Under the pieces are notes generated by a model that worked only from the letters and a program-made list of their open reading frames with translations, was not told the DNA's origin and did not search any database. Source: Amphibalanus amphitrite (lineage: Eukaryota > Arthropoda > Thecostraca > Balanomorpha > Balanidae). From it: a stretch of DNA of 64,000 nucleotides. A program made the position numbers and the translations under genes. Positions within the stretch are counted from its first letter, which is position 1. Every line of letters begins with the position of its first letter. The DNA is taken from positions 682,001-746,000 of the forward strand of contig NW_024881699.1 of NCBI RefSeq assembly GCF_019059575.1, given 5' to 3'. This document shows positions 43,001 through 63,936 of this stretch, piece after piece.

Positions 43001-46000
43001 CGTCTGCCGGCCGGCGCTGGAGAGCCTGCTCTGCAGCGTGGCGTTTCCGCAGTGCCGCCAGGCGGACGGCGCGCAGACGGCCCTGCCGCCCTGCCGAGAG
43101 GACTGCCTGGCCGTCAAACAGCTGTTCTGCGCCAACGAGTGGTACCTGCTCGTCAGCGGACAGAAGTAGGTGGTGGGTTGGGAGCGGAGAAGCTCTAGAT
43201 TCCTGAACATAGCAGCCTTAAACAATTGTAATTGTACAATTAACCGTTCTGGAAATGTGCTTTATTTGAGTTTACTCAACCTGGCTACTGGGCTGGTCGT
43301 GGTGTTACTACTTGCCATAGTTATTCCACATCTTCACGTGTCTTTCATACGCCCCGACTGCCGGGCCGCCGGGTTCTGTACCGTCCCTGACCAGTGACCA
43401 TGTCATGCCTGTGTTATATCCCCAGGCTGCCGGGCCACCTGGCTCTGCCCGACTGTGACCAGCTGCCGCAGCACGGCGACGGCTCGGCGCACCGCTGCTC
43501 ACACGCCGGCCTCACAGTGATGCTCACCTCACAGGTCACCTGTGAGTACCGGGGAGGCACCCGGGGGACCGACACTGGGTTGTCGGGTCGGCTGAAATCG
43601 TCTCGTACCGGGGATAATTATGTAGAGTATGCCTTTATGTTTGTTGGCGGAGCTGCTTGTTACATGGTGGCGATATGTGCGACTCACTGCACTATCTTCC
43701 TAAATCTGCTCGTTGGCTAACCACCGATCACGATGACCACTCCGCCTGATCCACAGACGACTGTGTGCGCGACCGGGGCCGGTTCTACCTGGGCCGAGTG
43801 AACACCACGGCCGACGGTATCCTGTGCCAGCGCTGGGACAGCGACTACCCCCACGACCACAGCGTGCCCGTCGAGCTGTTCCCCGAGCTGTCGGGCGCCG
43901 AGAACTACTGCCGCAACGCCGGCGGAGAGGAGCCGCAGCCGTGGTGTTTCACCACCGACCCGGACGTGCGCTGGGGGCCCTGTGATATACCCAAGTGTGG
44001 TGAGTCACCGGCGCGGGGGAGGGAGCGGAGGAGCGTGGATGGTGGCCTTGTGGTGATTGATTGTTGGGTGACTGGGTGGGTCTAGCAGTACTGTCCAGTT
44101 CTTACATTATTTAAAGCTTATTTACCTCACAAGTTAACTTCATTTGTTATGAGCGCTGAATTTTGTGAAAACATCCGTCTGTACCATCATTTTGTATTTA
44201 TTATTTAATAATTACTTCTTTCGTCGCTTTGACGCTCTCGTAACCCCCAAGTACGCTCAAACCCGACCGCTAACCACCGGCCAATCCCTAACATCTCCCT
44301 CCCTCCCCTGCAGCGGACAACAGCACGCTGTACGCGGACGACCCGGCGGCCTCGGCGGCTGCCAGCGGTCGGTCCCGCTCGGGCGGCCCGGCCGTCTCCG
44401 CCGCAGGGGACGGGGACGGACCGACCCTGGCTGGGTTCCCCCTGCCGCTCGACCCCGTGTTCCTGCTGGTCCTGGCCATCGCCGGAGTGACGGGTCTCAT
44501 CATGACCGGGATGGCCGTGTATGGATGCTGCCACTGCCGCCGCGCCCGCCAGAGAGCGGTGCAGAGGAAGGTAGGAGACGGGGCGGAATTGCATAGGGTA
44601 TGACGTTGGGTGAGGCAGACGCAGATAAAGGAGAGTCTGTAGTCATGCTGGTGTGATGCGTAAATATGATAACTAGTGCCTTTTATTAGTGTCACGCTCA
44701 TGGATATAGGCACAATGATTATCGCTCATCAGCTAGCCCGTTAAATGCGAAATTGGCTGACTTATTAAGCGGTGCCCCCGCCTTACCTGATCCCATCTCT
44801 CCCCGTTCAATACGCCATCATTCTAACTGCCGTACCCGGTCTGCTTCTAGGAGGCGGAGGCGATTGACCTGACCAAGCTGCCGGCCAACGCCAGCTACCA
44901 CCAGCACGAGCCGCTGCTGCCCGCCAGCCTGGAGCCGTTGGAGTACGCACGCAACGACATCATTTACGTGCGCGATCTGGGACAGGGCGCGTTTGGCAGG
45001 GTGTTCCAGGTGAGGAATCGGAACGGTCAGTTCGGGTGGGTATATTATGTGTCGCCGCGTATACTGTCTCGATTTTCTTGCTATAATTGGGGGGGGGGGG
45101 GGGGCTATACGGTGATGTCCGGTCGCGACGCACAGTGCAGTGCGTTGGATCCCTTGGGAACAAGCAATAAGGTGATGATATCATTCCACTGTTTCGATAA
45201 TGCCTCCATTGTTTTGGATGCAGAGGGGTGGCAGCCCATTCCGCTGCTCCCAGCTGCACTCCTGTATTTGGCTGACTTGCAATTGCCTCCCGGCCGTGGA
45301 CTATCGTGTGACTTCTGCTCTGTCCTCCCCGACAGGCCAAGGCGCCGGACCTGGTGCAGGGCGAGGACTTCACCATGGTCGCCGTCAAGATGCTCAAAGA
45401 CGAGGCCACCGAGGACATGGAGCGAGACTTTGAGCGCGAGGCGCGTCTGCTGGCCGGATTCGACCACCCTAACATCGTCCGCCTGCTGGCAGTGTGCGCC
45501 GTCGGCAAACCCCTCTGTCTGCTCTTCGAGTTCATGGACCAGGGTGATTTGAACGAGTACCTGCGTCAGGCGTCACCCAAGAACGTCATCATCAAACACG
45601 AGACGGGCGAGATTTTCAGCGACTCGACACTGAGTCACCTGGATATGACGGTGATCGCCCAGCAAATTGCTAGCGGCATGCAGTACCTGGCTGAGCGCCA
45701 GTTTGTACACCGCGACCTCGCCTGCCGCAACTGCCTCATCAACGAGGAGATGATCGTCAAAATCGCCGACTTCGGCCTCTCGCAGAAGATCTGCTCCAAC
45801 TATTTCCGCGGCGACGAGCACGACGCGATCCCAGTGCGCTGGATGCCTCTGGAGAGCATCCTCTACAACAAGTACACGCTGCACTCTGACGTCTGGGCGT
45901 TCGGCGTGGTGCTCTGGGAGATCTTCTCGTTCGCGCTGCAGCCCTACTTTGGTATGACGCACGAGGAGGTGGTGCGTCACCTCAAGGACGGCCAGCGGCT

Positions 46001-46229
46001 GAAGCGGCCGGAGAACACGCCGCGCACCATCCACCAGCTGATGCGCGACTGCTGGGCGGCCGAGCCCACGCAGCGGCCCACGTTCGCCGCCATCGTGCAG
46101 CGGCTGCAGGAGTTCCAGGACCGACTGGACCAGCAGATGGGCGTGTACGGCTACACCACGGCGGCCAACAGCACGTACACGAGCCGCGCGCCGAGCATCG
46201 GCAGCCCCTCGACCTCCAGTAGACGGTGA
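39960..46229 (+). CDS. Nrk: MuSK/Nrk-type receptor tyrosine kinase
   Basis: Twelve exons join with consistent phases: 39960-40023, 40603-40755, 40987-41121, 41705-41832, 42127-42153, 42320-42491, 42766-43165, 43426-43541, 43757-43999, 44314-44570, 44851-45009 and 45336-46229, for about 915 residues. The order is signal peptide, two Ig domains, Frizzled-type cysteine-rich domain, kringle, transmembrane helix and tyrosine kinase. The kinase reads like vertebrate MuSK ([43 protein letters not shown]). MuSK organises the neuromuscular synapse in vertebrates. The arthropod orthologue, Nrk, is a neural receptor whose ligand is not known to me. Vertebrate MuSK has three Ig domains, so this protein has one fewer unless an exon was missed. 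The start ATG gives a good signal peptide. Confidence 0.93.
40603..42491 (+). CDS. Nrk: Nrk exons 2-6: two Ig domains
   Basis: Ig 1 (residues about 22-117) spans two exons, with Cys44, the ILWRF tryptophan, and the DEGRYLC motif ending in Cys99. Ig 2 (about 118-226) has Cys142, VTWLFHGDP, and SSDYVC ending in Cys199. It is split by a 27-nt microexon (42127-42153, LPASNWQSE). The microexon has both splice sites (TTTTTTGCAG before, GTAAGCG after) and phase 0 on both sides, so skipping it would keep the frame. Confidence 0.87.
42223..42275. repeat. (ATTC)n microsatellite in Nrk intron 5
   Basis: Ten or more tandem ATTC units with two interruptions, just upstream of exon 6. Confidence 0.95.
42766..43999 (+). 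CDS. Nrk: Nrk exons 7-9: Frizzled-type CRD and kringle
   Basis: Exon 7 and exon 8 encode the cysteine-rich domain, from [11 protein letters not shown] (Cys253) through [21 protein letters not shown] and [15 protein letters not shown] to LPDCDQLP, then a variable end. Exon 9 encodes one kringle with six cysteines (residues about 401-479) and the signatures [36 protein letters not shown] and IPKC. Kringles occur in Ror, Nrk and non-mammalian MuSK receptors. Start of exon 7 is uncertain because three in-frame acceptors exist. Confidence 0.9.
44314..45009 (+). CDS. Nrk: Nrk exons 10-11: stalk, transmembrane helix, juxtamembrane
   Basis: A Ser/Gly/Ala-rich stalk is followed by the helix around residues 526-550 ([19 protein letters not shown]) and a CCHCRR-type cytoplasmic border. 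Exon 11 holds [14 protein letters not shown], at the position of the MuSK NPxY docking site, and then [20 protein letters not shown] with the glycine loop (residues 609-614). Confidence 0.9.
45089..45104. repeat. 16-G homopolymer in the last Nrk intron
   Basis: Uninterrupted run of sixteen G on the sense strand, 80 bp after the exon-11 donor. Confidence 0.95.
45336..46229 (+). CDS. Nrk: Nrk exon 12: tyrosine kinase core and C-tail
   Basis: Shows VAVK (Lys636), HRDLACRN (Asp745), DFG (763-765), the APE-equivalent PVRWMPLE segment, [11 protein letters not shown], and [12 protein letters not shown]. All residues needed for catalysis are present. The activation loop reads [15 protein letters not shown], with one tyrosine where MuSK has three. 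A short Ser/Thr-rich C-tail ends in TGA at 46227. Confidence 0.95.
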
Positions 46230-48931
46230 GCGGTGACTCGGCTCAGCGCAGGCTGATTAGCTCAGCTCAGTTAGCTCAGCTCCTAGCTCCATCACGGTAC
46301 GGGCGGAGGGACGTGGCATATCGCCAGTATCAACTGCCCCCTCGGCTGCTAGCGTTTATCGCTCTAGGTGACTTTTGTTTAGCGGGCTCGGACCCGCTGA
46401 CGCTTTGCGTCAACCATCGAAATAATGCGAAACAGCGGTCAGTATTCGAGAAACGATTCCGCTTCGTATTACTTTATACTTATTGTACATTCTCAATCTA
46501 TACGATCGACGATCGCATGAAAACTGTCGTCGTGTGTGAAGCTACTTTTAGCTCGCTAGGGTCGCTTGGAAAAACCGAGCATCAGCTACGAAATCAATTC
46601 CGTAGATTATGCATTTTGTTCGAATTTATTTACTTTGTAGGCGAAGTAATTGTGGTGCTACGTAGATGTTATTTTGTGGCTGTTTTGTATCGAGCGCTTT
46701 CGAGCTCTTTTTCAGGTAGCATTGTAGATCTGAGCTTAACCTAAAAGACCAATTTGAACACCCACCCATGCCCTCATTTTGGCCGATTCAGGCCACTTTG
46801 TATCGTATTTCAGCGTAATTGTTAGACAAGTTCTTTCAGCTGTGGCTCGATATGGCAAGTCCGCGCGCCGCGCTGGTCACAATGGGCTCAACAGGGTGAG
46901 GTCGCGGTCGGCTTTAGTGGTAGCGCCTTCGCGCGTCCCTAGCATAAGAGAAGGTCGCGCGCGCGCGGTTCTGCCCCATCGTGCGAACATTTCGTTTTCG
47001 GCGGTGCGCCGTTTGTTTTCGTTGCCCGCCGGACGAGCGGGAACGGCCGGGTCTGAGTCATAATCTCTGTCGGGGTTCGTGACGTGACGGTGTGTGACGC
47101 TCCGTGACGGATAGATGTCTAGTCTGGTGCCGGCGGCCGGCGCCGGCCCCAGCCCGCACGGGTCAGTGGCGGCGGGCCGCGCGGCGCTCCCCGTGGTGGT
47201 AGTTTGTAGGCCAGCTGTGAGTGTGGTACGTGTCGTGACCCGGGGCGCGTCGTTCAGTCGGCGGCAGTCATGTTCTTTTCGTCACCCTGCCCCTGTCACC
47301 CTGCCGCTGCTGTCAGTGTGTGCGGCGCTCCTACCGTTTTTACACTTTTGTATCTGACCTGGCTTTGTACGTATTTGCAATATTCTCGGTGCTTATTACC
47401 AGCCATGCGCTGGGCGCGACCTGCGACGGTCCCCGCTTGCCCACGTAGTTGCAACGACGGTCTGCCGGCGCCCGCCCGCGGCCCCTCTAGTCAATGGCCG
47501 TCGTTAGGTGCGTCCCGTCGGTGTAGCTAGCTGTGTAGGAACCCGCCGAGCGCGCTGCGCCCCGTACTCATTCACCTTGTGATAACTGCGCGCCAAATAT
47601 ACATGCCGACTACGTCATATGCGAGTTTGGAGGTCGGATGGTGTCGGGGAAAGGGTGGCGAATGAACACAGGTGACTGAGATTTGGTGTTTGGAGGGATT
47701 TTAACACGGGAACCCCCCCGGTTCGAGTCTCCCGTCTGGACTCTGAAACGCTTTCCATGTGCTGATACTGACTTCACATAGCCATGCGACATGCTGAAGC
47801 TATGATATGCTCTCTGCGAAAGTCGGGGGGGGGGGGGGGGATCAGTTACTCTAAGAGCAACGAATTCGTCCGCCCTAAACCACGTCTAGCATTGTCTGTG
47901 GCTTATGCAACAAAAAGTGGACCTCTGCAGGGTACGTCTGAGCAGTATAAAGCAACTGCTGAATCTCTTGAAGTCTGAATGCTCGCATGTGCGGTCCAGT
48001 AACCCCATGCAGCAGCGGTCAGTAAGGCGTCCGTTTAAATTTCAAACCCGCGAACCAAGCCGCAAAGCAGGGTTTGTTAGTTGTTTTACCAATGTCCCTA
48101 CATGCCATGGCACGAAGGAAGGTTAACTAGCTGAGGAGGCTTGCAAGCCTCTTCATTTTATATAGCGCTGCACCTAATATTCATAGCTATAAGGGGAAAT
48201 AACCGTAAGATGAAGCCGGACATTGTTTCACATACCAGTTCAAAACACACTTCAAATTCGTTAATATTCATTACAAAGGCAGGCGGCAAAAAAGTACGCG
48301 TTTGAGGCAGAAAGACAACTAATCGGCTGCCCCAGAGCAGCAGCTTTGAGTCGGTTAAGTTAACAAAACGGCTAAAACAACGCACAGTACTGCACGACAC
48401 AGACTCGGCGCGGCCGGAGCGGCGCCCGCGAGCCCAGCTGATAGCGCGAGCCCTGACAGCCAAGGCACTCTCCGTCTGTCGGTCCGGCCCGTGCGCCGCC
48501 GCACCACAATAATATCAGCCGTCGTTGCGTAGGGTGATTGCCGCGGTGTTTCGTTTAAAATAAATATCACCGCTCGTTAAAACTCTGGCCGGCAAGGGGA
48601 CCCCGGCGGCGACGCGTCACAAAATGTGATCACTGGCGCCACAACCCGCTCACAAAAGTTCACAATCAAGCGTCCGAACACGGCGAGGAGCACGGATAAA
48701 ACTAACACCTAGCTGATAACGTAAACCGCGCGGGCGCGCGCGAGTTCTGTCGGCGGGTTAAAGCTGACCCTGACCCCCAGGCAGCGAGTGCCCGCGGGAG
48801 CGACCACCGGCAGATCAGACCCTGTCCCGCTGGGTCGGTCCAACTGCGCGGCCTCTCACACAGACTGGGCACCTATACGCTAGGTGGGATTAACCAGGAC
48901 AGGTCGGTCGACTTTGGTAAAATACAACTCC
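46230..48931. other. 3' region between convergent Nrk and Mical
   Basis: Contains the Nrk 3' untranslated region, of unknown extent (an AATAAA lies near 48560), GC-rich patches at 46.85-47.3 kb, and a 16-G run at 47825-47840. Long ORFs at 46226-46744 and 46779-47357 show no recognised domain and probably lie in untranslated sequence. Confidence 0.4.
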
Positions 48932-49230
48932 CTACACCCCGCGGCTGCGGCACGGCCATCCCCGGCCAGCGTCCGACGGCAGCTCTAGCACCGACACCCG
49001 GCTCGGGAGCCGAGCTCTGCGCGCTAAACGCGGCGAGCGAACCTTGGTGGGCACCGGCGGGCGCACCTTGGGCGTCTTTGGGAGCCGGCGCAGTCTCCGG
49101 GCGTCTTTGGGCGTTTGGAGGGCGTCTCGGCCGTGCCTAGACGGTCGACTCTGCCGGCTCTCCCGGCGGGGAGACGAGGCTGGCGGCGGCGACGCGGCGG
49201 CCCTCGGTCGACTCACACTCGCTGGCCAGT
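48932..49230 (-). CDS. Possible alternative terminal exon of Mical
   Basis: On the minus strand an acceptor (CTGTGCCTGTTGCAG) is followed by 99 in-frame codons ending in TAG. In phase 1 it reads DWPASVSRPRAAASPPPASS and continues Pro/Arg/Ser-rich with KTPKVRPPVPTKVRSPR. Phase 1 fits several Mical donors, including weak ones inside the last exon (for example after VARAR). The composition could also be that of a GC-rich non-coding island, so this is a candidate only. Confidence 0.25.
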
Positions 49231-50516: not shown

Positions 50517-50890
50517 CCCAGGCCCCAGCCCAGCCTCAGACAAACAGCTCCAGGTGCCAGGGCTCGGCCCACCCCAGCCTCAGACAAACAGCTCTAGGTG
50601 CCAGGGCTCGGCCCACCCCAGCCTCAGACAAACAGCTCTAGGTGCCAGGGCTCGGCCCACCCCAGCCTCAGACAAACAGCTCTAGGTGCCAGGGCTCGGC
50701 CCACCCCAGCCTCAGACAAACAGCTCTAGGTGCCAGGGCTCGGCCCACCCCAGCCTCAGACAAACAGCTCCAGGTGCCAGGGTTCGGCTCACCTCAGCCT
50801 CAGACAAACAGCTCTAGGTGCCAGGGCTCGGCCCAGCCCAGCCTCAGACAAACAGCTCCAGGTGCCAGGGCTCGGCCCACCCCAGCCAGT
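50517..50890. repeat. 44-bp minisatellite overlapping the Mical C-terminus
   Basis: Eight units with an exact 44-bp spacing (AGGTGCC at 50552, 50596, 50640, 50684, 50728, 50772, 50816 and 50860) and very few substitutions. In antisense each unit can read AEPWHLELFV followed by a stop. The unit nearest the gene provides the last residues and stop codon of the Mical reading frame. Confidence 0.96.
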
Positions 50891-53291
50891 GGAGCAGCAC
50901 TACCAGCGCCACCGCTATCACCACCCTGACCGCCACGCCGCGGACGGTCAGCGCGGGTGGCGGCGGCGGGCGCGGCCGCCACCAGCGCCCACCGCGCGCC
51001 CGGGCCACCAGCCGGCTGTGGCGGCGCGTCACACCGCGCTCGTACCTCTCCTGTTCCGAGTCCATGGCGGCGCGCAGCGAGCGCCGCTGCTCGGAGATCT
51101 CCAGCAGCGAGCTGACCACCTGCCGCTCCCGCTCCACGTCATCGGCCGACTTCTGGGCGTCTGGGGACAGAGGTACGGGGGTCAGAGGCGGGCACAGCTG
51201 GGGCGGGAGGACTGCGGTGGCTCGGAGGGGTCAGATGAGAGTGGTGGTAAACGGTGAAATGAGAATAAGAGCATAAATTAGCATCATCAGTCAGGGCATA
51301 GCAGCAGACGTGGGTACGCTGTCCTTACGAAGCATTCGCAGTATACAGGGAAACAGATCACATATTATGCACGTTTGACGAAAAAAAAACTCGGTAATCT
51401 GAATAGACATGTCCACTTAAACATGTCGCAGTCATTTCAGAAACGACTTTTCTCGGCAGCCTGACAGAATGCTTGGCAATTAGTCGTTCGTTCGCTTCAA
51501 TATCCAGCAAAAGTCCACCCCAATCTCCAACAGTCAGTCAGCGCTCCTCACTGCTCACCGACTCATCCCTGACTAACTCACCACCTCTCCCGACCGACTC
51601 ACCGCTGGTGGCCATTCTCTCTCTGAGCTCCAGCTGCAGCCGGTCGTGGCGGTCCTCCAGCTGCAGCTCTTGCAGCTGCAGCTGCAGCAGCTGGTCGCGG
51701 CGCACCATCAGACTGCGCTCGTGCACCAGCTCAAACCACTCGTGCATCAGCGTCGTCTCGTCCACGCCGGCGGAGGCTGGGGAAGCGCCGCGCGGACGGA
51801 CAGGGGAGGGAGGGGCGGGTCGGGCAGTTAGTGGGATGGACGGGTGGCACGCAATAGAGCGGACAGACGCAAACGCTCAGTTAGAACGCACACGGACGGA
51901 CGATTCGGAGTCAAAATGGGTTAACGTGTCTTAAATCCCTATTAACATGCAAACAGAACGACTATAACATCCTTTCACACAAACAAACGCGTACTTTTTT
52001 AAAACTAGGGCACTTTTTGGAAAAAGTAATATTGTATGTTGCAAACAGGAACTAAAAGGGACCAGACGAAACGAACTCAACAGTACCAATTAAAGCTGGC
52101 TGGCTACCTCCATCACAGCGCACCACACTTCATTCTGCGCCACTCACTCCCAGTGCGAAGTGAGTACAACTCACCCTGCCCGCCCTCTCCACGGATGGCC
52201 CTCTCGACGGCGATGCCGCGCTGCTCCAGATCCCGCTGTCGCACCTCCACCTCGTCCAGCTGACGCTGCAGCTCCTGCGCCCGCTGCAGCCTGGGAAACG
52301 GGAGTGGGAGGAGATACAGGGATCAGATCGGCCTGTATTACAGAGGTCAGACGGGTCAGCTATTGCGCCCGCTGCAGCCTGGAAACGGTATAACTGGGGT
52401 TCTGCACAAAACAATACCGTCAACAGCCGAGAGGATTTATATCTGAGTAGACCGCCACATCAAGGCCACCGGCGCTCCCTCCCTAAGCTCAACACTATGG
52501 CTTGTCACGCGCATCACCCGAGTAATTATACGCACCTCCTCATTTCGGCGTGTCGAGCGGCGCGGCTGGTCTTGGCCCGTCTGGTGAGCGAGCCGCCCGG
52601 AGTGGCCGCATCGCTGTACTGAGACTGGCTTAGAGACTCCGACAGAGAAGCGTCTGCGGGACAGATGAGAACGGTCAGACGGCTCTAACCGTACTGAGAT
52701 TTCAAAACTATAAAAAGCAACTGGCCGTCTGAGAAACAGGGGATGTACCAACAGAACCACCGTCCTGAGACGCGCTAATTGGACCGCGCGAGAACCTGTG
52801 ACTCACCGGGGCTGTGCACAGCGGCCGGGCCGGCGAACGGCGGCTCTCCAGAGGTGCGAGGCGACTCGGGCCCGCCGTCAGACCTCCGCTCCTGGGTGAC
52901 ACAAAGCGGGGTCAGAGGGGGTCAGACGGAATGCGATCCTATACTAAGCGAGTATGCGTAACAGGTATAAATGCCTGGTTGGGACATTCTGTTTCCAAGT
53001 ATTCAGCATAACAACCATGATTTATAGAACACATGCACCTGTCAAAATAAGCACCTAATAGTCAGAAGACCGACATTGACCGGTCCACCACCCTTACCTT
53101 TCCCCTGCGGAACTTGAGTCCCAGTTTGTCGCGCACAGAGTTGGCCTTGACGAAGGGCGCCGGCTGCTGCTGCTGTGGCTGCGGCTGTTGTGGTGCCCGG
53201 GTGGGACTGGCCGAGCTGCGCCGACGCTCCGGCGGGCTCCCCGGAGGCGGGCTGGACGCCCCGCCCTTCTTCTCACCGGACTTGAAAATGT
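50844..53291 (-). CDS. Mical: Mical bMERB domain exons and hydrophobic tail
   Basis: Exons 53291-53098, 52891-52807, 52653-52536, 52290-52175, 51776-51603 and 51160-50844. The first carries a KANSVRDKLGLKFRRGK segment. The bMERB helices start near RRAKTSRAARHAEMRRLQRA, continue with QLDEVEVRQRDLEQRGIAVE and LMHEWFELVHERSLMVRRDQ, and end with VVSSLLEISEQRRSL. This is the Rab-binding three-helix fold of MICAL family C-termini. After it come RRHSRLVARARGGRWWRPRP, a poly-Pro stretch, and VAVRVVIAVALVVLLHWLGW, then the stop. Confidence 0.9.
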
Positions 53292-56200
53292 CTGCGGAAC
53301 AATGAAACATTTTATTGGAAGCATGGGCAAAGGTGAGGCAATGTGTTTTTTCAGATCTAATAGAGCAAGGAGGATTGAACATGACGGTAGCGGTGGTAAA
53401 ACGAAAACAGAAACCGTTCTTTCGGTGTTTACGAATAAATATCAAGACTGAATATGTTGGATGTCGTCTCTGATTACGATGAAATTGTATAACAAATAGA
53501 CAGAGACAGCAGTGCACCAAATGGCTGACAAAAGTCACTGAACTGTTACCGCTGGCCGATGTAATCACTCACCGGAGATGGCCCGGATGATGCTGCGCCG
53601 GCGCGGGTGCTCCCGTTTGCCGAGGTCGTGGCCGCAGCTGGCCGGGTCCGAGCGGCCCTCGGGACCGCCCCGCTCCGGACTGCGCGACACGGACGGACTG
53701 CTGGAGCAGTCCGGACTGGCGGCGCCCGCCGGGGTGCCGGCCGCCGAGCCGGCGCCGGCCCGCTCCAGGACGCTGGGCGTGCTGCGGCTGAGTGCTCCGC
53801 GCAGAGCGCCCGGCCGCACCGGCGGTGTGCTCGGTGTGAACAGAGACAGAGCGGCGGCCGGGTCGCGCGGCGGTTTGGGCGGCGGCGGGCCGGACGGCAG
53901 CGCGTCACCCACGGAAGGTCTGCGCGGCGTGGGCGGCGTGGCCGGCGGCGGCGCTGTCGGGGGCGGCGGCGGCGGCGGGACGCGTGGGCCAAACGCCGGG
54001 GAGGACAGCCGCTTCCTCAGCTGTCTCTCCGGCGATTTAACGCGGCTCAGCACCAGATCACGCACCAGGCTGCCCTGCTGAGCGCGCGGCGCCGGCGCTC
54101 CCGGCCTGGCCGCCGCCCCCGGGCGCTGACTCAGCATGATGGCGGAGTCTGTGGGACTACGCTGCAGCAGCAGACGAGCGCTCGCCTGTTCCACGATTGG
54201 CGAGACCTTGATGTCGGCGCGGGCCGGCGGCGCCGCGGCGCTTCTCGCCGCTCGCGGTGTAGCCGGAGACTTGGCCGGGGTTCGTGCCGCAGCCACCGGC
54301 GCTGGACTCGCCGCGGGGACCGGAGCGGCGGCCGGCGCGGACCTCGGGGCCGGCGTGGGCGTGCTCTTCGGTGCCGAACCCGCACCTGACCCGGAGGCAG
54401 CGATCGAACCCTGCGCTGAGTGCACAGCCATCATGGGTCCGGCCGAGAGCGGCCTGGCCGCGCGGCCGGCGCCCCCCGGACGGGTGACCACCCCTGCGCG
54501 GCCGGCCAGCGCTCCCGGCGGGGCTGAGATGCGGTCCGCCGTGCCTCGCTGTAAAGCCGGGCGACTCCGGGTGGAGGACGCTGACCTGACCGATACACCG
54601 TTCTCCTTCGGCGCCCTCTGAGAGCCAGACCCTGTCGGTTCCTTGCCAATGGAGGACTTACGAGTCAGACAGGTCCCCGAGCCGCCGGAGTCACCGGAGG
54701 CTGATCTACTCTGAGCAGTGATCTTGCCGTAACCTGAGCTCTTGACGTACTTGGACTTACTCTCTGCTAGCGCTTCGACAGCTGATCGTCGCTTCTCCGG
54801 AGCTTTGGTAGCAGAGATCAACTTGCCGTTGCTTGACTCAGCTGTTGCAGACTTTGTGGCCGGAGCTGTCGTTACCGCTTTACTAGAAGCCGCAGCTGTA
54901 ACCGGCCGGCTGGAAGCTACATTATCTCTAAGTGCTTCACCACTAGCTGCCGACACAGTTTCTTTACTTTCTGGCACAGCACTGTCAGCAAGCTTTTCCT
55001 CAACTGCAGCGACTGGCACCGGTTCACCAGCACCCACAATATCCACCTTACTGTCTTTAGCCTCGGAAGACGGCGAGGGCGGACTAGCAGCCGCATCAGG
55101 GTACACATACTCACACCGACCCCGATTTTTAGCCGCTGGCGGCGGTGGCGCCCCTCCCTCGTCCCCACTGGCACTGTTGTCCGCGAAATCCAGATCATCA
55201 AACACATCTCTCGTTTCCTCCTCCTGTTTCACGGGAGGCGGCGCTTTTACAGGGTCCTCCGGCAGCTCCGACACGTCGTCCTCAAAGTCACTGAGGGTGG
55301 CCAGGTTGGCCTTCTCCCCGGTACCGCGCCGCACCGTCACAAACCTCTCGTCCACGCGGAACTCGTGCGGCACGTCCGCCACGCTGGCCACCTCCGACTC
55401 GTGCGCCCAGTCAGAGAGGTCGAGCTCGGTGGCGTCGCGCGCCGCAGACTCGCCCGGCGACTCGACCGAGTCGGCCGTCGCCGGCGGGAGAGTCGGGAGA
55501 GGTGGCGGCGGCTCCGGTTCGGCGGAGCGGCGTGCCGGAGACACCGGCTCGCCGCTCGACCGGCGCCGTCGGATCTGAGACAGGAGCGTGCGGTTCTCCT
55601 CGATCAGACGGGTGACGTCGAGAGCGGCCGCCTTGCTGGGTGGAAGAGCTGACACGGTGTCGTCTGCGACGGTCGGCTCCGGAGCTTCAGCAGCCGGTGT
55701 GATGGCCGCGGCCGGAGCGGCAGGCGCGACAGGGGCAGCGGCAGACGCGTCAGGCTCGCTACAAACCGGAAGATCTTCAGACTCAGCAGGCATCGGCTCC
55801 TCACTCTTCAACAGCTCACCCTCCACAGCATCCTTCGCATCCGCCGGAGCAGGAGAGGCCGCGGCGGATGTCTCCTGCTCCCCACATACACCCTCAAACT
55901 TCTCCTCCAGACGCGTCACGTCCAGACCACCCAGCAGGGCGTCAAAGTCAGCCGGCGAGACGTCCAGAGACGTGGGCTCGGCGACCGGCACCGGCAAGTC
56001 TGCCGACCCAGCGCCAGCAGGTGTCTGATCAGGATCATTCACGACACTGACCGCCGACGCAGCCTCCATTTGCTCCGACGAGTCCACCCCAGCCGGCGGC
56101 GCAGTTTCTACTCTCTCAGCTTCTGCCGTCGCTGCCTTCGCTGGCTGTTCCTTCACGGTGGGGGTGGGCGGCGGAGACGTCTGTAGATCAGTACCCTCAC

Positions 56201-59200
56201 TCAGAGACGAGTGCATCGTCTCGGCAAACGCCGCCAGCACGGCCGCGCGCGCCTCTCCACTCTGCGAATCCACCACCGATATATCCGTCAGGCTCTCCTC
56301 CAGTTCCATCTGCTCCTGACCGGCCGAGTCCTGGCTGGGGGCGGCCTCCAGTGGAGGCGGCGCCGCGGCACCGGCCTGCTCCGAGCCGGAGCTGATGGAG
56401 GACGGGGTGGAACTGGAGACAGTCGGCGGCGTGCCGGGGGTGATGGCTGACGCGGTGGCGGCGGCCGGTACCACCCCGGAGGGCGGCGCGTCGTCCAACT
56501 CACTGCCGCCCGTCTCGGAGGTCTCTGGTGGAGGAACCTCCGGCACGGGAGGTGGAAGAGGAGAGGCGGGCGGGGACGCGGACGGCACGGGAGGCGGAGG
56601 GGAGGTGGGAGGAGGACTAGCGGGCGGCGGGGGAGGAGGGGACGCAGCACTGACGGACGCAGCGGCAGCGGCCGCCGCCGGAGCGGGTGCTGGTGTTGCC
56701 ACCGGTACTGCCGGAGACGCGGAGAGGGTTCTCGTCAGGGGCGAGCCCAGACGTGAGGTGACCGCTGACGTGGTCCCCGCCGCAGCCGTCGACGCCGTGG
56801 TGCTTGCTGTCGATGTCAGCGTCCCGCCGGCAGCTAACCGACTGGAGAGGCTCGGCAGTCGCGAATCCAGTGTCTGTCGAACGCCAGACGACGGCCGCAC
56901 CGCCGGCGCCGCCGCCGGCCGTGCGCCCAGCAGCTTCTGCGTCTCCGAGATCCGACTCATGAACGTCTTGACGCGACTGTCCAGGTCTGTGGTGGATTGA
57001 GACTTGGACGGAGCGTACGGTGCCGTCTGCTCCGTCAGATACTTCCGCTTTAGCTCCAGCGAATTCTTCCAGGCGATTGCCTCGCTCGACTCGGTACGCT
57101 GGATGAGGTAGGGTCGATGCGAGGGCGCGCTCTTCCGCGCCTCACGGATGATCTTCGCCACGGAATCCTCCTCCTCTTCCTCTTCTGCCGTGGAGCGTTT
57201 CGCCTCCGCAGTGGTGGCCGACTTCTTCAAACCCGCTGCCGCACGTGGACGAGCGTTGACATTTTTAATCGTCTCCGCCTGGTCGCCCGCTCCGCGCTGC
57301 CTCCCCGGTAGTTTTCTCCTCGCGGCCGCTGGTGCCGTCGGAGCGGCCCTTCCCTTCTCCTTCGCTTCAGTGGGACTCGCGGCGTCCGCCCTGCGCGGCG
57401 AAGACGACGGCGTCCTCTTCGCTGCCGGAGCTTTAACCGGAGAGGCTGCCTCAGCCGGAGCCGGAGCCGGGGCCGGGGCCGGAACCGGAGCCGGAGCCGG
57501 AGCCGGCGGCTCGGCCGGCTCGGCAGCAGGCTCCGGGCGCCCCTGCTCGGCGCCGATCGGCTCGGGCCGCTCTCCGGGCCGCGGCGAGCCCGGCTCCGGC
57601 GAGGTGGCCTCGCTGACGGCCGAGTTCTCGATGACGATGGTGGGCAGCGGCCGGGGCGCGGCGGCCGGCGCGTCGTCAAACTCCGAGTCGGTGGCCACCT
57701 CCGTGGCGTCCTCGTCCTCCGAGGAGGAGGTGGTCTCCTCCGAGGACGAGGAGTCCGAGTCGGAGGACGTCTGCGGGAGAAACAAACGGAAGGCGTCAGG
57801 GGAGAGACGGGGGTAAATGTGGAGAGATCACGGCATTTTCATACAACGGCTGCGGTAGAGGCAGCCGCGATTGTTACCATCGTGTGTTTGACTACGACCA
57901 TAGTGCCTGACCGTCATATAAAGTCACTCTGCAGATATACCCACATATGTATCGGCAGACCTAAGGTTCATGTCTTATGAAAACAAAATAACGGATTACT
58001 GGTGGACAAGAATAATATCCTAGCTTCCTCGTTGTAGTTAACAATTTTGGACAGAGTTATGAAGCTCCGTAAGGAACAACAGGAACAGTTGCAGGCAAAC
58101 AACCACTCACGAAAGTGACCGGTAGCAAACAAACCGGGTAACTGATGATACGGGCTGTACACAACGAACTTAACTGTTGGCAACATATGTGTGAGCATTT
58201 AAAATATTTTGTTTGACACAAAAAGAACCAGACGCGTCAAATGCCTAACAGTCAATGCTGAAATAAAATACTAATGACGCCATGAATGACGAGTACGGCA
58301 TCATCTTGAGGTTTTGTTCGTTTCGCTATCCTTTTCCTGAACAAATGCTGGACCATTAGACATCACGGTGAGTAATGTGTCAACGCACTCCATGAATTTA
58401 GTATTTACATACATTTTGATAAGCAAACAAAAGTAATATGAACGTATTAGTCAGAAGAGATGAATACATAGACCAAACGAAGTATCTGCATTCAACGAAC
58501 CTCAACTTAAAAACCAGGCTAAAATGGATCGAAAACTGACACATGCAGTCATGCACTAGTCCATCAATTTACAGGAGTAGAGTCCACACATTTTGTTAAC
58601 CGAACTGTCCGCAGTCATTTTCGCACCACAAATCTGGTAGTTGGTACCCAGCTGAAGTACCGCAAGATGGGAGGTCATTTCTGTCTATTTCATCGGGTTG
58701 AATCGAACTAACTACTGATTGGATAGTGAGAAAGATCCCGTGACGGCAACCCACACAACTCTGGGACCCGAGACTGCGGGGTCAGACCGAACTTCGCCAA
58801 GTAAATCGACAATCTAATCTGACACGAAATAAACACTCCCTGAGATAGCTTTCCAGGGCTCAGCACCTCAAATTTTCTAGATACTAGAGTAGAATGAATC
58901 GGACCAAGACGGTCTCTGCTGCAGGCAGCCGGCCGGAGCTGGGCTCTGATAGACCGCCGCGGGGTGCGGGGTCCGTCTGCGACTCTGTACTAGCGGCACA
59001 GGCCGGGGACCGACCGATGGGAACCGCCGGCCGGCCGGCCGGCCGAGCGCGTCGTGTTAGCACACTGTCTCGAGCGTTAGTGGGAGACACAGCACGCAAC
59101 ACGAGCCACCTACGAGCGCCGGCCGGCCGGCCGGGCGGTCACTGCAGCCGGCAGCAGCCGTCGCCGCGCCGTCCCTGCTGCCGCTGCTGGGTGTCGGTAG

Positions 59201-62200
59201 ATGGGGGAGCGGAGGCGGCGGGGCGGGCCGGTACAGGAGGGGACGGCGAGCGGCGCTGGTTGGTCGTCGGGGCCGGATCGGGGCCAGGAGCGGTGGAGGA
59301 CAGAGATTGGGGCGGAACGGCGGAGGGCTTGGAGGAAGATTCGGTACTCTGGGAGTCGGGCGGGGGCTCATTGATCTTACAGGGATTCAGGAAGGCCTGA
59401 GCCGGGGTCCCGGAGGTCTGGGAAGAAGTATCCGATGTCTTGGCTGTTCCCGAGGTCTGAGAGGGCGTCTCCGTAGGCTGGGCCGGTGATGCCGCTGGCT
59501 CAGCAGTCTCTATTGGCTGAGGAGGCCCAACAGAGTCTTGGGATGGGGCCCCAGAGACTGCTTTCTGGTTGCATGGGGACGTGGCCTTTTCAGCTACCTC
59601 TGCTGGCTGCGAAGATACTTTACTTTTCATAGGATCAACCGGATTTTTGACAGAAATGCCCGGCCCCTGTTGGGCATTTACGCCATTCGCTGACTTGGGC
59701 ATGTCGGTGGTTTTAGCTGTGATTACAACAGTTTTGACCGGAGGTATCACCCCACGTGGCGCTGAAACGTTCGTCCCTGTGAGCTCCCCAGCTGATCCCA
59801 CCTGAGCAGGCATATTATAATGAGCTACAGGCCCAGGGGATCGCTCGGAGCGCTCCCCGTTCGTCCGGGACGAACCCATAGCTGTCTGAAGCCCAGCAGA
59901 GATCCCAGTTCCACCCTCCACCTGCTGGTTCAACCCAGACTCGCCTACTGTCAGCTTCACCGACTGCGTCAACCCCAAGCTCTGACTAGGTGTGGCTGTC
60001 GGAGCGCCACCGGCCAGCCAGCGGGCCCTCTCAGACTGATGTGGGGAGCTTCCGCCGCCGGAGAGGCCAGCAGCAGCACCCTCTGATCCCGCCCCAGTGA
60101 CAGTGGTACCGCGACCCGGGGAAGTGGACGGGACATAGGGAGTCAGAGACACACGCAGGAGCCCGGGACTGGAAGAAGTGCCCACGGACCCGGGAGTCGG
60201 AGAAGTACGCGGTCCCCCAGGAGTCGGGGAGGCACTCAGGGTGCGGGGACTCGGGGAAGGTTGCGGGACTTTCGGGGTGGCTCCGGATGTGCGTGAAGTC
60301 GGCACGGTGGAAGAGGAGACGGTGGTGACCGGGACCGAGCCGTTTGACAACGCCAGAGCCTAAAACAGCACCCAGCGGACAGCCGATGAACGATCGAGAA
60401 TTGACCAGTACCTCAACCGGGCCAAGTTGAATATTCCTAAACTCAACTTATATGCATCGCGTGAGCTAAGGTGTGATTGCAGAACAGCCAACAGTATTGG
60501 CATCTATGTAGGAACGACTTTAACCAACACCAATTTACTACAGAAGATGTTCAAAATGGTGAAACGGCAGTTTCCAGATATGAAGCTTTTCAGAGACGTA
60601 AATGAATACAGGTAAAAAAAGGTTTTCACATCACACATGTCTGGCATGACGAGCAAAATCTAGTAAACAGCCACAAAATGAAAGCTGCATGGAGTCAGCA
60701 TATCATATACCTTCACAACCCAGCTTGATACTAAATTCGATGATGAGGTAACCATATTCAATACCCAGCACAAACCAAATTCTCACAAACTTTCCCAACG
60801 TGAGTCCACGCTGTACGGCCTCTCCACGTCTCCAACCATGTCCAAACACGCCCAGTTCCTCCCATCCCGAGCCCTCCCTTTCCCTCCCTCCGGCACCCAC
60901 CTCCGTGTCGCTGGTGTCGCCGTGCTTGCTGCTGCGGTTGCGCGACTTGAGTACGTCCTCTGCCAGGTGTACCTCCTGCTGGCGCCGCAGTCGGGCCGAT
61001 GCGTCGTCCTCAGTCTCCGACTGGGTCGCCGTGTCAGAGTCTGTACCGATGGACGGATGATTGTCAGGGGACGTGTGAGGCAGGCGACATGACACAGAGG
61101 CTACTGGGACAGGTTTGGTAGGCAGTCATAAATATGCAATGCTGCACCCTCTGTACCTGACAACTTGTTGCACTGCTTGAAAGGGGTAACGGCGACCAAT
61201 ACTTTGCAGCACACCACAAGAACCCTTCTCCCCAGCTCGTCTCAGACACGCACGAGACGCTCCATACAGGACAGACACTCACCGTCTCCGTCCCGATCGC
61301 AGCCGTCTGACTCGTACAGGTCGCTGGGCTCGTCGAGCGGGTCCTGCGAGTGTCTGCGGCGCCAGCGCTCGGCCAGTCGGAGTACCTCGTCCTCGTCCAG
61401 AGCCGGCTCGTACTCGTCCGAGTCGGACGAGGAGAGCTCGTCCTCACTGAGGACACGCGAGAGGACAGCGGGTTAAACAGAGGACAGGTCGTACTAGTCA
61501 GAAACGGACGACCACAGCTCGTCCTCACTCAGGACATATGAGGAGGAGAGCGAGTGTTGCAATCGGACGACAACCCATTCTCACTTAGGACCGCAAGCCT
61601 TCCCGCACTGATATACACCAGTCTCGCCTTTCCCGACTCACAAGCCCGTTGCACTATCATTCCCGCTCTATCATTGCACTATCATTCCCGCTCTATCAAT
61701 TATTCTCCCAACCAACTGGTCATCCGTCTTCCCATCAAGCTCATATCTCGCTCGTCCTCATGCTACGCCTGTCCAGATAGGCTCCTGTGTCCTCCCGTCC
61801 CTCTCGTTCTCTCACCAGCTATTCCCCCATTCCTTCCATCCCCTCCCCAGCCGTCCTCCCATTTCTCCCGTCCTCTCACCACCACCATTCCTCCCGTCCT
61901 CTCACCTGTCCTCTCCATCGAGAAGGTCCTCGCTGGTGAGTTCGGCCGCCGACATGCCGAAGTTGTGGTCCGTCCACTCGTCCTCGTCCATCTCAGACAG
62001 ACGCTCCTCGGGCGCCACAGCCAGCACGCTGTTCTCAAACTCGGCACGTTCCGGTGTGGCGCCGCGCGCCGCAGCGCCGGGCACAGAGAGACTCTGGAGA
62101 GAGGGACGAACACACGGCGGATTAGATGGGTACGGTGAGGAGCATAGTGCGGTTGGCAGGCTAGTAAGGCTAGTGTCAGAGTGGTACACTGACAAAGTGG

Positions 62201-63936
62201 GTTGGTAATGGTAGTACGTCACTACACTAAACAAAGCACATGCAAGCTGAGAGACAATTACTTTTCTGTAACCCAATAAACGGCAATGTGCCACAATGAA
62301 ATGCTCGCAATGAGATCAATCGGATAGGTAATATTGATTTTCTAATCCATGGACATCAAGCTGGGCGCCTGAAGAGAGGTCAGGGCATCGCGTTTCACGA
62401 GCGTTCTCCCAATCCCATCGTTTCGCGGCGATCGTCCGCAGACTCACCCCCTTGTCAGGCGTGTCGGTCGGCTGTTCGGGTTTCCGCTGGTACTTGTACT
62501 TAACCAGCGAGTGGAGACCAAAGTGCGGCATACAGAAGAACCGGCCAGAGTCCTGGTCGAACGCGTAGTTCACTGGGGAGGTGGAGAAGAAATGTCAGGA
62601 AACGAGACACGACACGAGATGATAACAGATAAATTCTCCGCATTTTGACCAGGCCGCCGCAAACACGTTTGAAACTAAGAAAAACGCAACTCACGTTGAG
62701 CGCAGTCCTTACTCATTTCGAGCACACAACATCTTTTACTTCATTTCATCATAGCTCATGCATTCATTGAGCACAGTGCCTACTCACTCATTTTGGGTGC
62801 ACAGGATACTCACTCATTTTGAGCCCACATCCTACTCACTCATTTCGAGCCCACAGTACTCACTCATTTTGAGCACGGTGCCGCAGTACTCGCAGCGGAA
62901 GCAGCCGTGGTGGAAGAACTTGCCCTCTGCCGACATCCGCTCCACCAGGTACACGCGCTCGTTACAGAAGTGGCACGCCTCGGCCGCACCCGCCTCCGTC
63001 TTCTGCGAAGGAACAGGGAAGGGATGACGGTCAGGCATCACTGGAGCAGCAGTGCAACAGAAGCAACATCTGGCAGGGCTATACCACTGGAGTGTATGCC
63101 TGAAGTAGGAGTGCAGTGTAGTAGGAGTGTAGTGTAGGAAATGGAGTGTAGGTAGGAGTGTAGTGTAGGAAATGGAGTGTAGGTAGGAGTGTAGGCTAGA
63201 AAGCTCATGAAAAACGCCAATTCCAGAATATAAGGAAACGCTATAAAAAATGAACAGGGAATGAAGCATCAAGTTTTATCGACCGAATGAGAGTCCCCAA
63301 TTAGTTTCATCTCGGTAGTGTCTCGCAACTGGAGTAAAGCGTGGGTTATTCAAACTGTACGAACGAAAGGCATGCACACCGGTCGCCTACGGGCATCACT
63401 AACAACTAATAATGTTAGGTGTAAATTAAACAATTTTCTGTACAAATTTAAAATACACCAATCAATTTGAACCTTCTGCAGCTGCAGCCTTCACTTCAAT
63501 AAACCTAAGTGTATCTGGCTTTCCCGTTAGCCTTCAGACGATTAAAATAACCTCACTTCGCTCCGCTAACAATCGATCTTAACAATCGAAACAAATGAGC
63601 TTCACAATCGAAATATTTTACATGAAAAATATACATCCTCCCTTTGCTGTTTTATCAATCAACTGAAGCCGCCTCACCACTCCCATCGAACACTGCTCCT
63701 TCCGCCCCTCCCTCTATTGCACCTACCTTTTCGGCCGGCGGCGCCCGGTCGGCCCTGTCCAAGAACTGCTGCGCCATCTGCGAGACCCGGTTCGAGCCCC
63801 GCTGGCCCACGTCGCGCGTGGTGCCCTCCCGAAGCTTCATCTCCAGTCGCCGCAGGTGCTGGTCGATGTCGGCGTACTTGCGCAGCGTCTCCGGCGGCAC
63901 GGCGCCGCGCTCCGCCAGATTCCGCATCGCCTGGTA
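50844..63936 (-). CDS. Mical: Mical, 3' part (5' end beyond the window)
   Basis: Fourteen coding exons, minus strand, in phase: 63936-63727, 63002-62864, 62572-62448, 62093-61906, 61446-61283, 61040-60901, 60359-59802 (or to a stop at 59139), 57770-53573, 53291-53098, 52891-52807, 52653-52536, 52290-52175, 51776-51603 and 51160-50844, about 2,240 residues in view. MICAL proteins oxidise actin methionines through an N-terminal FAD monooxygenase and bind Rab GTPases through a C-terminal bMERB domain. Here I see the CH-LIM linker, LIM domain, acidic segments, a long disordered region and bMERB. The LIM sequence VYLVERMSAEGKFFHHGCFRC is of Mical rather than MICAL-like type. The monooxygenase and CH domains should lie right of the window. 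The hydrophobic C-terminus is unusual. Confidence 0.9.
53573..57770 (-). CDS. Mical: Mical 4.2-kb exon: long disordered region
   Basis: A single exon of 4,198 nt codes about 1,399 residues rich in Pro, Ala, Ser and Glu. It opens with TSSDSDSSSSEE. The one clearly conserved island is at about 56925-57120: HRPYLIQRTESSEAIAWKNS, KRKYLTEQ and SRVKTFMSRISETQKLL. Poly-Pro segments (ASPPPPPPASPPP type) and alternating PAPAP follow. Phases are 0 in and 1 out (donor GTGAGT). Large plus-strand ORFs here (for example 54742-55578) are shadows of this exon. Confidence 0.92.
57771..59138. other. Mical intron with GGCC runs
   Basis: Mostly AT-rich intron. A GC-rich part at 58900-59138 carries GGCC tandem runs (near 59027 and 59119). 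The ORFs 58884-59102 and 59057-59371 are compositional. Confidence 0.5.
59139..60359 (-). CDS. Mical: Mical Pro/Ser/Thr-rich exon with two possible ends
   Basis: Starts after the acceptor GTTTTAG in phase 0 and stays open for 406 codons (SPSPRTLSASPTPGGPRTS-type repeats, and later SPSPPVPARPAA, an SH3-ligand-like segment) to TGA at 59139. An internal donor, CAG then GTGGGA at 59802/59801, also leaves phase 0 and fits the next exon. So either the exon is 558 nt and splices on, or a shorter isoform ends here with GDGCCRLQ. Confidence 0.7.
   Translation of the reverse strand, partial: ALALSNGSVPVTTVSSSTVPTSRTSGATPKVPQPSPSPRTLSASPTPGGPRTSPTPGSVGTSSSPGLLRVSLTPYVPSTSPGRGTTVTGAGSEGAAAGLSGGGSSPHQSERARWLAGGAPTATPSQSLGLTQSVKLTVGESGLNQQVEGGTGISAGLQTAMGSSRTNGERSERSPGPVAHYNMPAQVGSAGELTGTNVSAPRGVIPPVKTVVITAKTTDMPKSANGVNAQQGPGISVKNPVDPMKSKVSSQPAEVAEKATSPCNQKAVSGAPSQDSVGPPQPIETAEPAASPAQPTETPSQTSGTAKTSDTSSQTSGTPAQAFLNPCKINEPPPDSQSTESSSKPSAVPPQSLSSTAPGPDPAPTTNQRRSPSPPVPARPAASAPPSTDTQQRQQGRRGDGCCRLQ
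60901..62093 (-). CDS. Mical: Mical acidic exons after LIM
   Basis: Exons 62093-61906, 61446-61283 and 61040-60901. The first contains ATPERAEFENS and SEMDEDEWTDHNFG, a pattern shared by MICAL2/3-type proteins after the LIM domain. The second is SEDELSSSDSDEYEPALDED followed by LAERWRRRHSQDP. The third contains SETEDDASARLRRQQEVHLA. Phases 0/2, 2/1 and 1/0 all match. Confidence 0.88.
62448..63002 (-). CDS. Mical: Mical LIM domain exons
   Basis: Exons 63002-62864 and 62572-62448 together encode CHFC, HHGCFRC, CEYC, then NYAFDQDSGRFFCMPHF. All eight zinc ligands of two zinc fingers can be assigned (C-C-H-C and C-C-C-H). The short stretch KYKYQRKPEQPTDTPDKG follows. The donor of the first exon (ATGA, then GTGAGT) lies at the edge of a small tandem repeat. 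Confidence 0.93.
62700..62870. repeat. Degenerate tandem repeat at a Mical splice donor
   Basis: Four to five copies of a unit of about 30 bp, GAGC(A/C)CA then CTACTCACTCATTT, end at the 3' edge of the first LIM exon. The last unit holds the real exon end and donor (ACTCAC on plus is GTGAGT on minus). Confidence 0.85.
63100..63200. repeat. TAGGAGTGTAGTG short tandem repeat
   Basis: Repeated GTAGGAGTGTAGTGTAGGAAATGGAGT-like units in the Mical intron between the linker and LIM exons. Confidence 0.85.
63727..63936 (-). CDS. Mical: Mical linker exon before the LIM domain
   Basis: Seventy codons, phase 0 at both ends: YQAMRNLAERG, then a helical KYADIDQHLRRLEMKLREG and a GSNRVSQMAQQFLDRA segment like the one preceding the LIM domain in Mical proteins. 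Acceptor GGCGGACAG and donor GTAGGT are clear. Upstream exons are outside the window. Confidence 0.85.

Follow-up and report, generated by a model that had tools for sequence, protein, structure and literature searches.

A predicted membrane-anchoring tail as an alternative C-terminus of Mical in the barnacle Amphibalanus amphitrite

MICAL proteins are thought to reach membranes by way of Rab GTPases and plexins, and tail-anchored proteins are held in the membrane by a single C-terminal helix. MICALs have been called cytosolic (PMC3645671); in the available part of that text the word "transmembrane" has no match, and an S/T-X-V PDZ motif at the MICAL end is mentioned there as unconfirmed from multiple sequences. 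Rab8-family GTPases are bound by bMERB domains mainly via helix 3, together with part of helix 2 (PMC5026484). A membrane anchor directly behind bMERB, an arrangement with which the barnacle tail form described here can be compared, is found in EHBP1 and EHBP1L1, and the CaaX box of EHBP1 (CVLQ) is required for its endosomal localisation (PMC5026484, PMC7442826). However, these proteins carry a lipid anchor and not a peptide helix, and in the available parts of the two papers their domain plans contain no monooxygenase and a choice between two ends does not enter the descriptions (PMC5026484, PMC7442826). A search of titles and abstract openings of the open-access literature found, among the matches listed, no description of a tail-anchored, membrane-anchored or transmembrane Mical or of such isoforms, in agreement with the earlier note on this DNA, which knew of no tail-anchored MICAL.

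The stretch of DNA analysed, hereafter the window, is 64 kb long, and its minus strand carries a Mical gene of which 13 exons (63936-50844) join into a single frame of 2055 residues, the first exons lying beyond the window. The sole stop of this splice is the final one, compared with 39 and 65 stops when the join is read in its other two frames; all joins have GT-AG borders, the exons run from 63936-63727 down to 51160-50844, and the last of them opens behind the acceptor tccccag and stays open until the TGA at 50846-50844. Splice residues 1-400 match the annotated protein "[F-actin]-monooxygenase MICAL3 [Amphibalanus amphitrite]" (P0002) at 100% identity, and two further blocks do so at 96.2% and 95.7%, the three together covering 1104 of the 2055 residues; the residues outside these blocks are without a match among the matches listed. 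Like MICAL1-3 and Drosophila Mical, P0002 possesses Rossman_Mical, CH, LIM and bMERB domains (PF12130 for the last, E 2e-27), of which the FAD monooxygenase and CH domains are seen in P0002 only, the corresponding part of the barnacle gene being beyond the window. The window sequence itself contains both LIM and bMERB of the MICAL family. LIM is found in the ORF at 62832-63275 (PF00412, E 1.2e-5; 25.9 bits, cut-off 22.9). The last exon alone matches positions 86-128 of the 134 in the bMERB profile PF12130 with E 0.00067, its 20.2 bits falling short of the curated cut-off of 24.6. Joined to the preceding exon, it matches the MICAL3 structure 5szg with E 6.3e-17 and EHBP1 chains with 5.1e-6 and 1.8e-5. 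The features are collected in Table 1.

Table 1. Positions in the window of the Mical features discussed in the text
Feature	Position	Strand	Basis
Eleven further upstream exons (LIM, acidic linker, start of bMERB)	52175..63936	minus	One open frame over the joins
Large low-complexity exon	57770-53573	minus	Among the eleven upstream exons
Preceding exon, middle of bMERB	51603..51776	minus	Structure match and open splice
Last exon, part common to both forms, encoding the C-terminal portion of the bMERB Rab-binding domain	51046..51160	minus	PF12130 and 5szg
Internal 5′ splice donor GAGAG/GTACGA, cut 51046/51045, phase 2, the donor of the annotated A. amphitrite protein	51040..51050	minus	Sequence, position, P0002
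Read-through part: end of an Arg codon, 66-residue tail (basic/Pro linker, hydrophobic segment, WLGWAEPWHLELFV), stop	50844..51045	minus	Open frame, P0001, GC
Predicted membrane helix VRGVAVRVVIAVALVVLLHW, residues 96-115 of a 128-residue ORF	50886..50945	minus	AlphaFold2 and hydropathy
44-bp minisatellite; unit 1 (50887-50844) coding with the stop, units 2-8 past the stop	50524..50887	minus	Repeat scan, unit alignment
Alternative last exon LASECESTEGRRVAAASLVSPPGEPAESTV-stop, PDZ-ligand-like end	49137..49230	minus	Located via the P0002 C-terminus; phase fits

Two other parts of the window deserve a short description. Further upstream in the same gene, a possible alternative last exon at 60359-59139 (minus strand) is open for 406 residues from an acceptor TTTTAG, is in phase with the exon 61040-60901, and ends in ...GRRGDGCCRLQ-stop, which is CaaX-like (compare CVLQ in EHBP1). 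Its synonymous-codon score of -0.06 lies between the exon mean of 0.22 and the intron mean of -0.34, and the other two frames score alike, hence this candidate may or may not be coding; if used, it would give a short Mical without bMERB. Outside the gene, ORFs at about 40800-46230 on the plus strand resemble by eye Ig, Frizzled and tyrosine-kinase receptor sequences, presumably of a ROR/MuSK-type receptor, and two arrays of a 15-base unit (GCATTTCTTCGTCTC), in which more than one reading frame (several in all) is open, lie at 1073-1842.

As judged from the sequence, the hydrophobic tail appears to be one of two Mical ends, and it is read when the internal donor stays unspliced. In the read-through form the 2055-residue frame closes with the hydrophobic tail and then ...HWLGWAEPWHLELFV-stop. 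The earlier note had Mical ending in this tail, and the tail frame is indeed present, but the annotated barnacle protein leaves the exon before it: P0002 reads ...DSEQER|LASECEST... across the junction and ends in ...MDSEQERLASECESTEGRRAAAASLVSPPGEPAESTV (...PAESTV). The exon that encodes this second end is entered through the acceptor TGTTGCAG/ACTGGCC, and one residue of it differs from the P0002 end. Both forms keep nearly all of bMERB, because the donor sits near the end of the domain; the Pfam match reaches profile position 132 of 134 in P0002, and 127 and 126 in an ostracod and a stick-insect relative (P0013 and P0009). Neither long form carries a CaaX box: the ends are ELFV and ESTV, and cysteine is absent from the final four positions. 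The poly(A) signals AATAAA and ATTAAA are absent from the minus strand between 51160 and 48000, which holds weak variants only, and this absence does not separate the two ends because the same interval also contains the AESTV exon.

Past the donor the tail reads YERGVTRRHSRLVARARGGRWWRPRPPPPPALTVRGVAVRVVIAVALVVLLHWLGWAEPWHLELFV, with a best 19-residue Kyte-Doolittle (KD) mean of 2.39 and a Wimley-White octanol sum of -6.3; the usual KD cut-off for a membrane segment is 1.6. The hydrophobic run VAVR-VVIAVALVVLL-H-WLGW is broken by R and H, leaving an unbroken core of 11 residues. Among all AGGT-entered frames of the window (n = 1590), 45 reach KD 1.6 and five reach KD 2.38 together with octanol -6.2, two of the five being the tail itself and three lying elsewhere. 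Reading through the gene's 12 other donors yields 1-65 residues, and none of these read-throughs matches the tail's hydrophobicity on either scale, the next best having KD 1.40 and octanol -5.2. AlphaFold2 predicts a bMERB helix at residues 23-79 and a separate helix at 96-115, with a mean pLDDT of 72 and a pTM of 0.32 from an alignment of two sequences only; the 10-residue blocks spanned by the second helix have means of 67, 85 and 72. Basic residues precede the hydrophobic segment and acidic ones follow it, with 13 residues past the predicted helix, and under the positive-inside rule this pattern fits a cytosolic N-terminus. The description of the tail as transmembrane-like in the earlier note agrees with these values and with the predicted 20-residue helix, and the tail is conserved in one relative. 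The single hydrophobic helix near the C-terminus that marks tail-anchored proteins is here a predicted one, and is weaker in that relative.

This relative (P0001), an ORF of 90 residues carried by an ENA contig of 683 bases, covers the same exon and was the single hit among 192 candidates with the exon's ORF as query. Before the donor 22 of the 25 overlapping residues are identical to the window, and after it 36 of the 65 aligned. At the end 11 of the last 14 residues agree, and the ELFV end with its last residue is kept, as are the frame and the hydrophobic segment, although the stretch MVVGVVLVGLV-R-WLGW, with its inner R, is less hydrophobic than that of the window (KD 1.82, octanol -3.6). 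When the tail DNA was evolved neutrally to the identity of P0001, by substitutions only and with no insertions or deletions, a premature stop arose in 4106 of 5000 runs, and in 31 runs the hydrophobicity of P0001 persisted alongside 11 or more of the last 15 residues. For synonymous codons the tail scores 0.410, above all 150 intron windows of the Mical gene, the same introns having trained the background, and its plain codon score is 0.249, with another frame higher at 0.389 and the hydrophobic half about zero (-0.017). Evidence from codon choice is moderate, because the introns trained the background, another frame scores higher and the hydrophobic half is about zero. The GC content of the tail is 0.77 (GC3 0.91), compared with 0.51 for the intron that precedes the exon and 0.48 beyond the array described below. 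Taken together, P0001, the neutral simulation, the synonymous codons, GC and the read-throughs of other donors suggest that the tail is more than an open intron and looks real.

A second Mical-like protein of A. amphitrite (P0003, 2671 aa), annotated as "serine/arginine repetitive matrix protein 2-like", ends in EESTV and has bMERB as its sole precomputed Pfam domain. As a paralogue it was considered as the source of P0001; it has DQRRALRQAMDAEQDALRAE at the corresponding place and, by eye, fits P0001 more poorly than the window does.

Relatives were pooled from three protein searches (1 of 192, 6 of 2899 and 16 of 46 candidates), giving 21 distinct proteins; the query of the last search was the bMERB end and hydrophobic segment of Timema tahoe P0004. 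P0007 stops before the junction. A hydrophobic segment lies past the junction in five proteins (P0001, P0004, P0008, P0009, P0013) and is lacking in 15 of the 20 that reach it. These 15, P0002 and P0003 included, end in ES plus one residue plus V or I in all cases except P0014 and P0021 (13 of 15; ESTV, ESNV, ESHV, ESDV, ESNI and ESAI were seen), and isoforms may be hidden among them because each 90% cluster is represented by a single protein. In the ostracod Darwinula stevensoni (P0013) the last 68 residues come directly after EEDRQR(Y) and end in LMPYLSTLLSLFLVLLWLLASWLLHPFME, with KD 2.21 and octanol -16.8, and in the stick insects of the genus Timema (P0004, P0008, P0009) the segment NNCAIVV(V)FVLLAWTLSYV stands at this junction too. 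The models P0004 and P0008, two of the three from Timema, continue past the hydrophobic segment into the canonical end, an odd arrangement for a tail anchor. Because its query contained the Timema segment, the last search favoured the Timema hits, and P0001 was likewise favoured by a query containing the barnacle tail; the tail of P0013 was not selected for, because its match covers 57% of the query, the bMERB share, just as in relatives that lack the segment. Convincing similarity among the barnacle, ostracod and stick-insect tails was not found: the best p of 0.02 comes from a run of prolines that window and ostracod have in common, and the other cross-group pairs range from p 0.07 to 0.96. 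The tails may be convergent, because no convincing similarity extends across the groups. The earlier note had suggested looking for the same hydrophobic tail in other arthropod Micals, and such segments do occur at this junction in one ostracod and three Timema, the tails themselves not aligning between groups better than chance apart from that run of prolines. The position of the tail is shared across the groups, and common descent is not supported by the tail alignment. For the ostracod and the stick insects, the gene sets that have been published were built by MAKER with transcript evidence (PMC8049415, PMC8865771); we infer that the P0013 and Timema records belong to these sets, and such membership is no proof that the tails are transcribed.

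The gene end lies in a tandem array with a period of 44, 8.3 copies and 95% matches, with eight full units at 50887-50536. Unit 1 comprises the final 44 bases of the coding sequence together with the TGA, so that the earlier note was right to place the last residues and the stop in the first unit of an eight-copy 44-bp array. Units 4-7 share one sequence; units 1, 2, 3 and 8 are 1, 1, 4 and 1 bases off the consensus. The protein is not lengthened by units 2-8, because every unit contains the stop and its 44 bases are not divisible by three. The motif GGCTGGG is present at both edges, at the start of unit 1 (within the W-L-G codons) and directly past the last unit, a pattern that would follow from duplication of the gene end by slippage between two GGCTGGG copies. 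Most likely the array grew from the gene end as a later, local expansion, probably by slippage between the GGCTGGG in the W-L-G codons and the one past the stop. The Mical array illustrates that a 3′ minisatellite can grow from a coding end with its first copy undisturbed. In unit 3, at window position 50794 on the minus strand and about 50 bases past the tail stop, the differences from the other units create an AGGTGAG, a good match to a splice donor.

The earlier note had left two origins of the array side by side, of which amplification of the gene end is favoured by the same kind of coding end in P0001 (WLGWDEPWCVELFV) and by GGCTGGG at both edges. The other, in which a dispersed satellite took over the gene end and contributed its final codons together with the stop, draws on the presence of exactly these in unit 1; with that same end in P0001, no exact 14-mer of the consensus unit elsewhere in the 64-kb window, and edge motifs that fit a local origin, we regard it as very improbable. 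It is also unlikely, if less strikingly so, that the tail is a mere unspliced intron whose donor is always used, the read-through being functionless or degraded as a product of quality control. The spliced annotated protein, the missing canonical poly(A) signal behind the tail and the frequency of chance hydrophobic read-throughs in the window, including the three non-tail frames at the tail's level, speak for this reading; P0001, however, keeps the frame, the stop and the last residues to an extent that neutral simulation seldom reproduces, exon-like GC and synonymous codons continue up to the stop, and hydrophobic segments recur at the same junction in other groups.

A further possibility is that the tail is made without being a transmembrane anchor, the short core with its flanking R/H, the tryptophans and ELFV forming a protein-binding or membrane-surface motif such as a class II PDZ-type ligand. 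Both barnacle-type sequences have the identical ELFV, with changes among the residues that precede it, and the hydrophobic core is short and broken by H or R. Against this, the window segment exceeds the usual KD cut-off of 1.6, and in the ostracod and in Timema the segment is longer and its hydrophobicity clear; we regard this reading as rather improbable.

We consider it fairly probable, from sequence comparison and structure prediction, that alternative 3′ processing provides Mical with a C-terminus that is either soluble and PDZ-ligand-like or a membrane anchor close behind its Rab-binding domain. Splicing at the donor would give the soluble, PDZ-ligand-like ...AESTV end, which may be recruited by partners. 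Left unspliced, the exon would serve as a composite last exon encoding the Arg/Pro linker, the hydrophobic helix and the stop at ...ELFV, and this mRNA would have to be made and polyadenylated. The tail segment would then insert into a membrane, with bMERB and the actin-oxidising enzyme in the cytosol and the membrane helix about 33 residues past the donor, and Rab8-family binding and F-actin oxidation might thereby be confined to that membrane. A helix behind bMERB would do a job like that of the EHBP1 CaaX box, without a lipid, and splicing would decide between a soluble and a resident membrane Mical. In comparison with MICAL1-3 and Drosophila Mical, a hydrophobic tail appears able to replace the C-terminal end in the barnacle. 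As in tail-anchored proteins, the tail has one hydrophobic helix near the C-terminus with basic residues before it, whereas its core is short and interrupted and its membrane insertion is predicted here from sequence. The Darwinula (P0013) and Timema (P0004, P0008, P0009) proteins resemble the barnacle in having a hydrophobic segment behind bMERB, in tails without convincing similarity.

More tentatively, it is possible that pancrustacean Mical has an ancient alternative C-terminus at one conserved junction behind bMERB, which switches the protein from a soluble PDZ-ligand form to a tail-anchored one, with F-actin oxidation and Rab binding built into the membrane. Any Mical splice form with an anchor of its own would act as an actin-oxidising enzyme that is resident in the membrane and Rab-ready, and it would allow a direct test of whether location alone sets where actin is disassembled.
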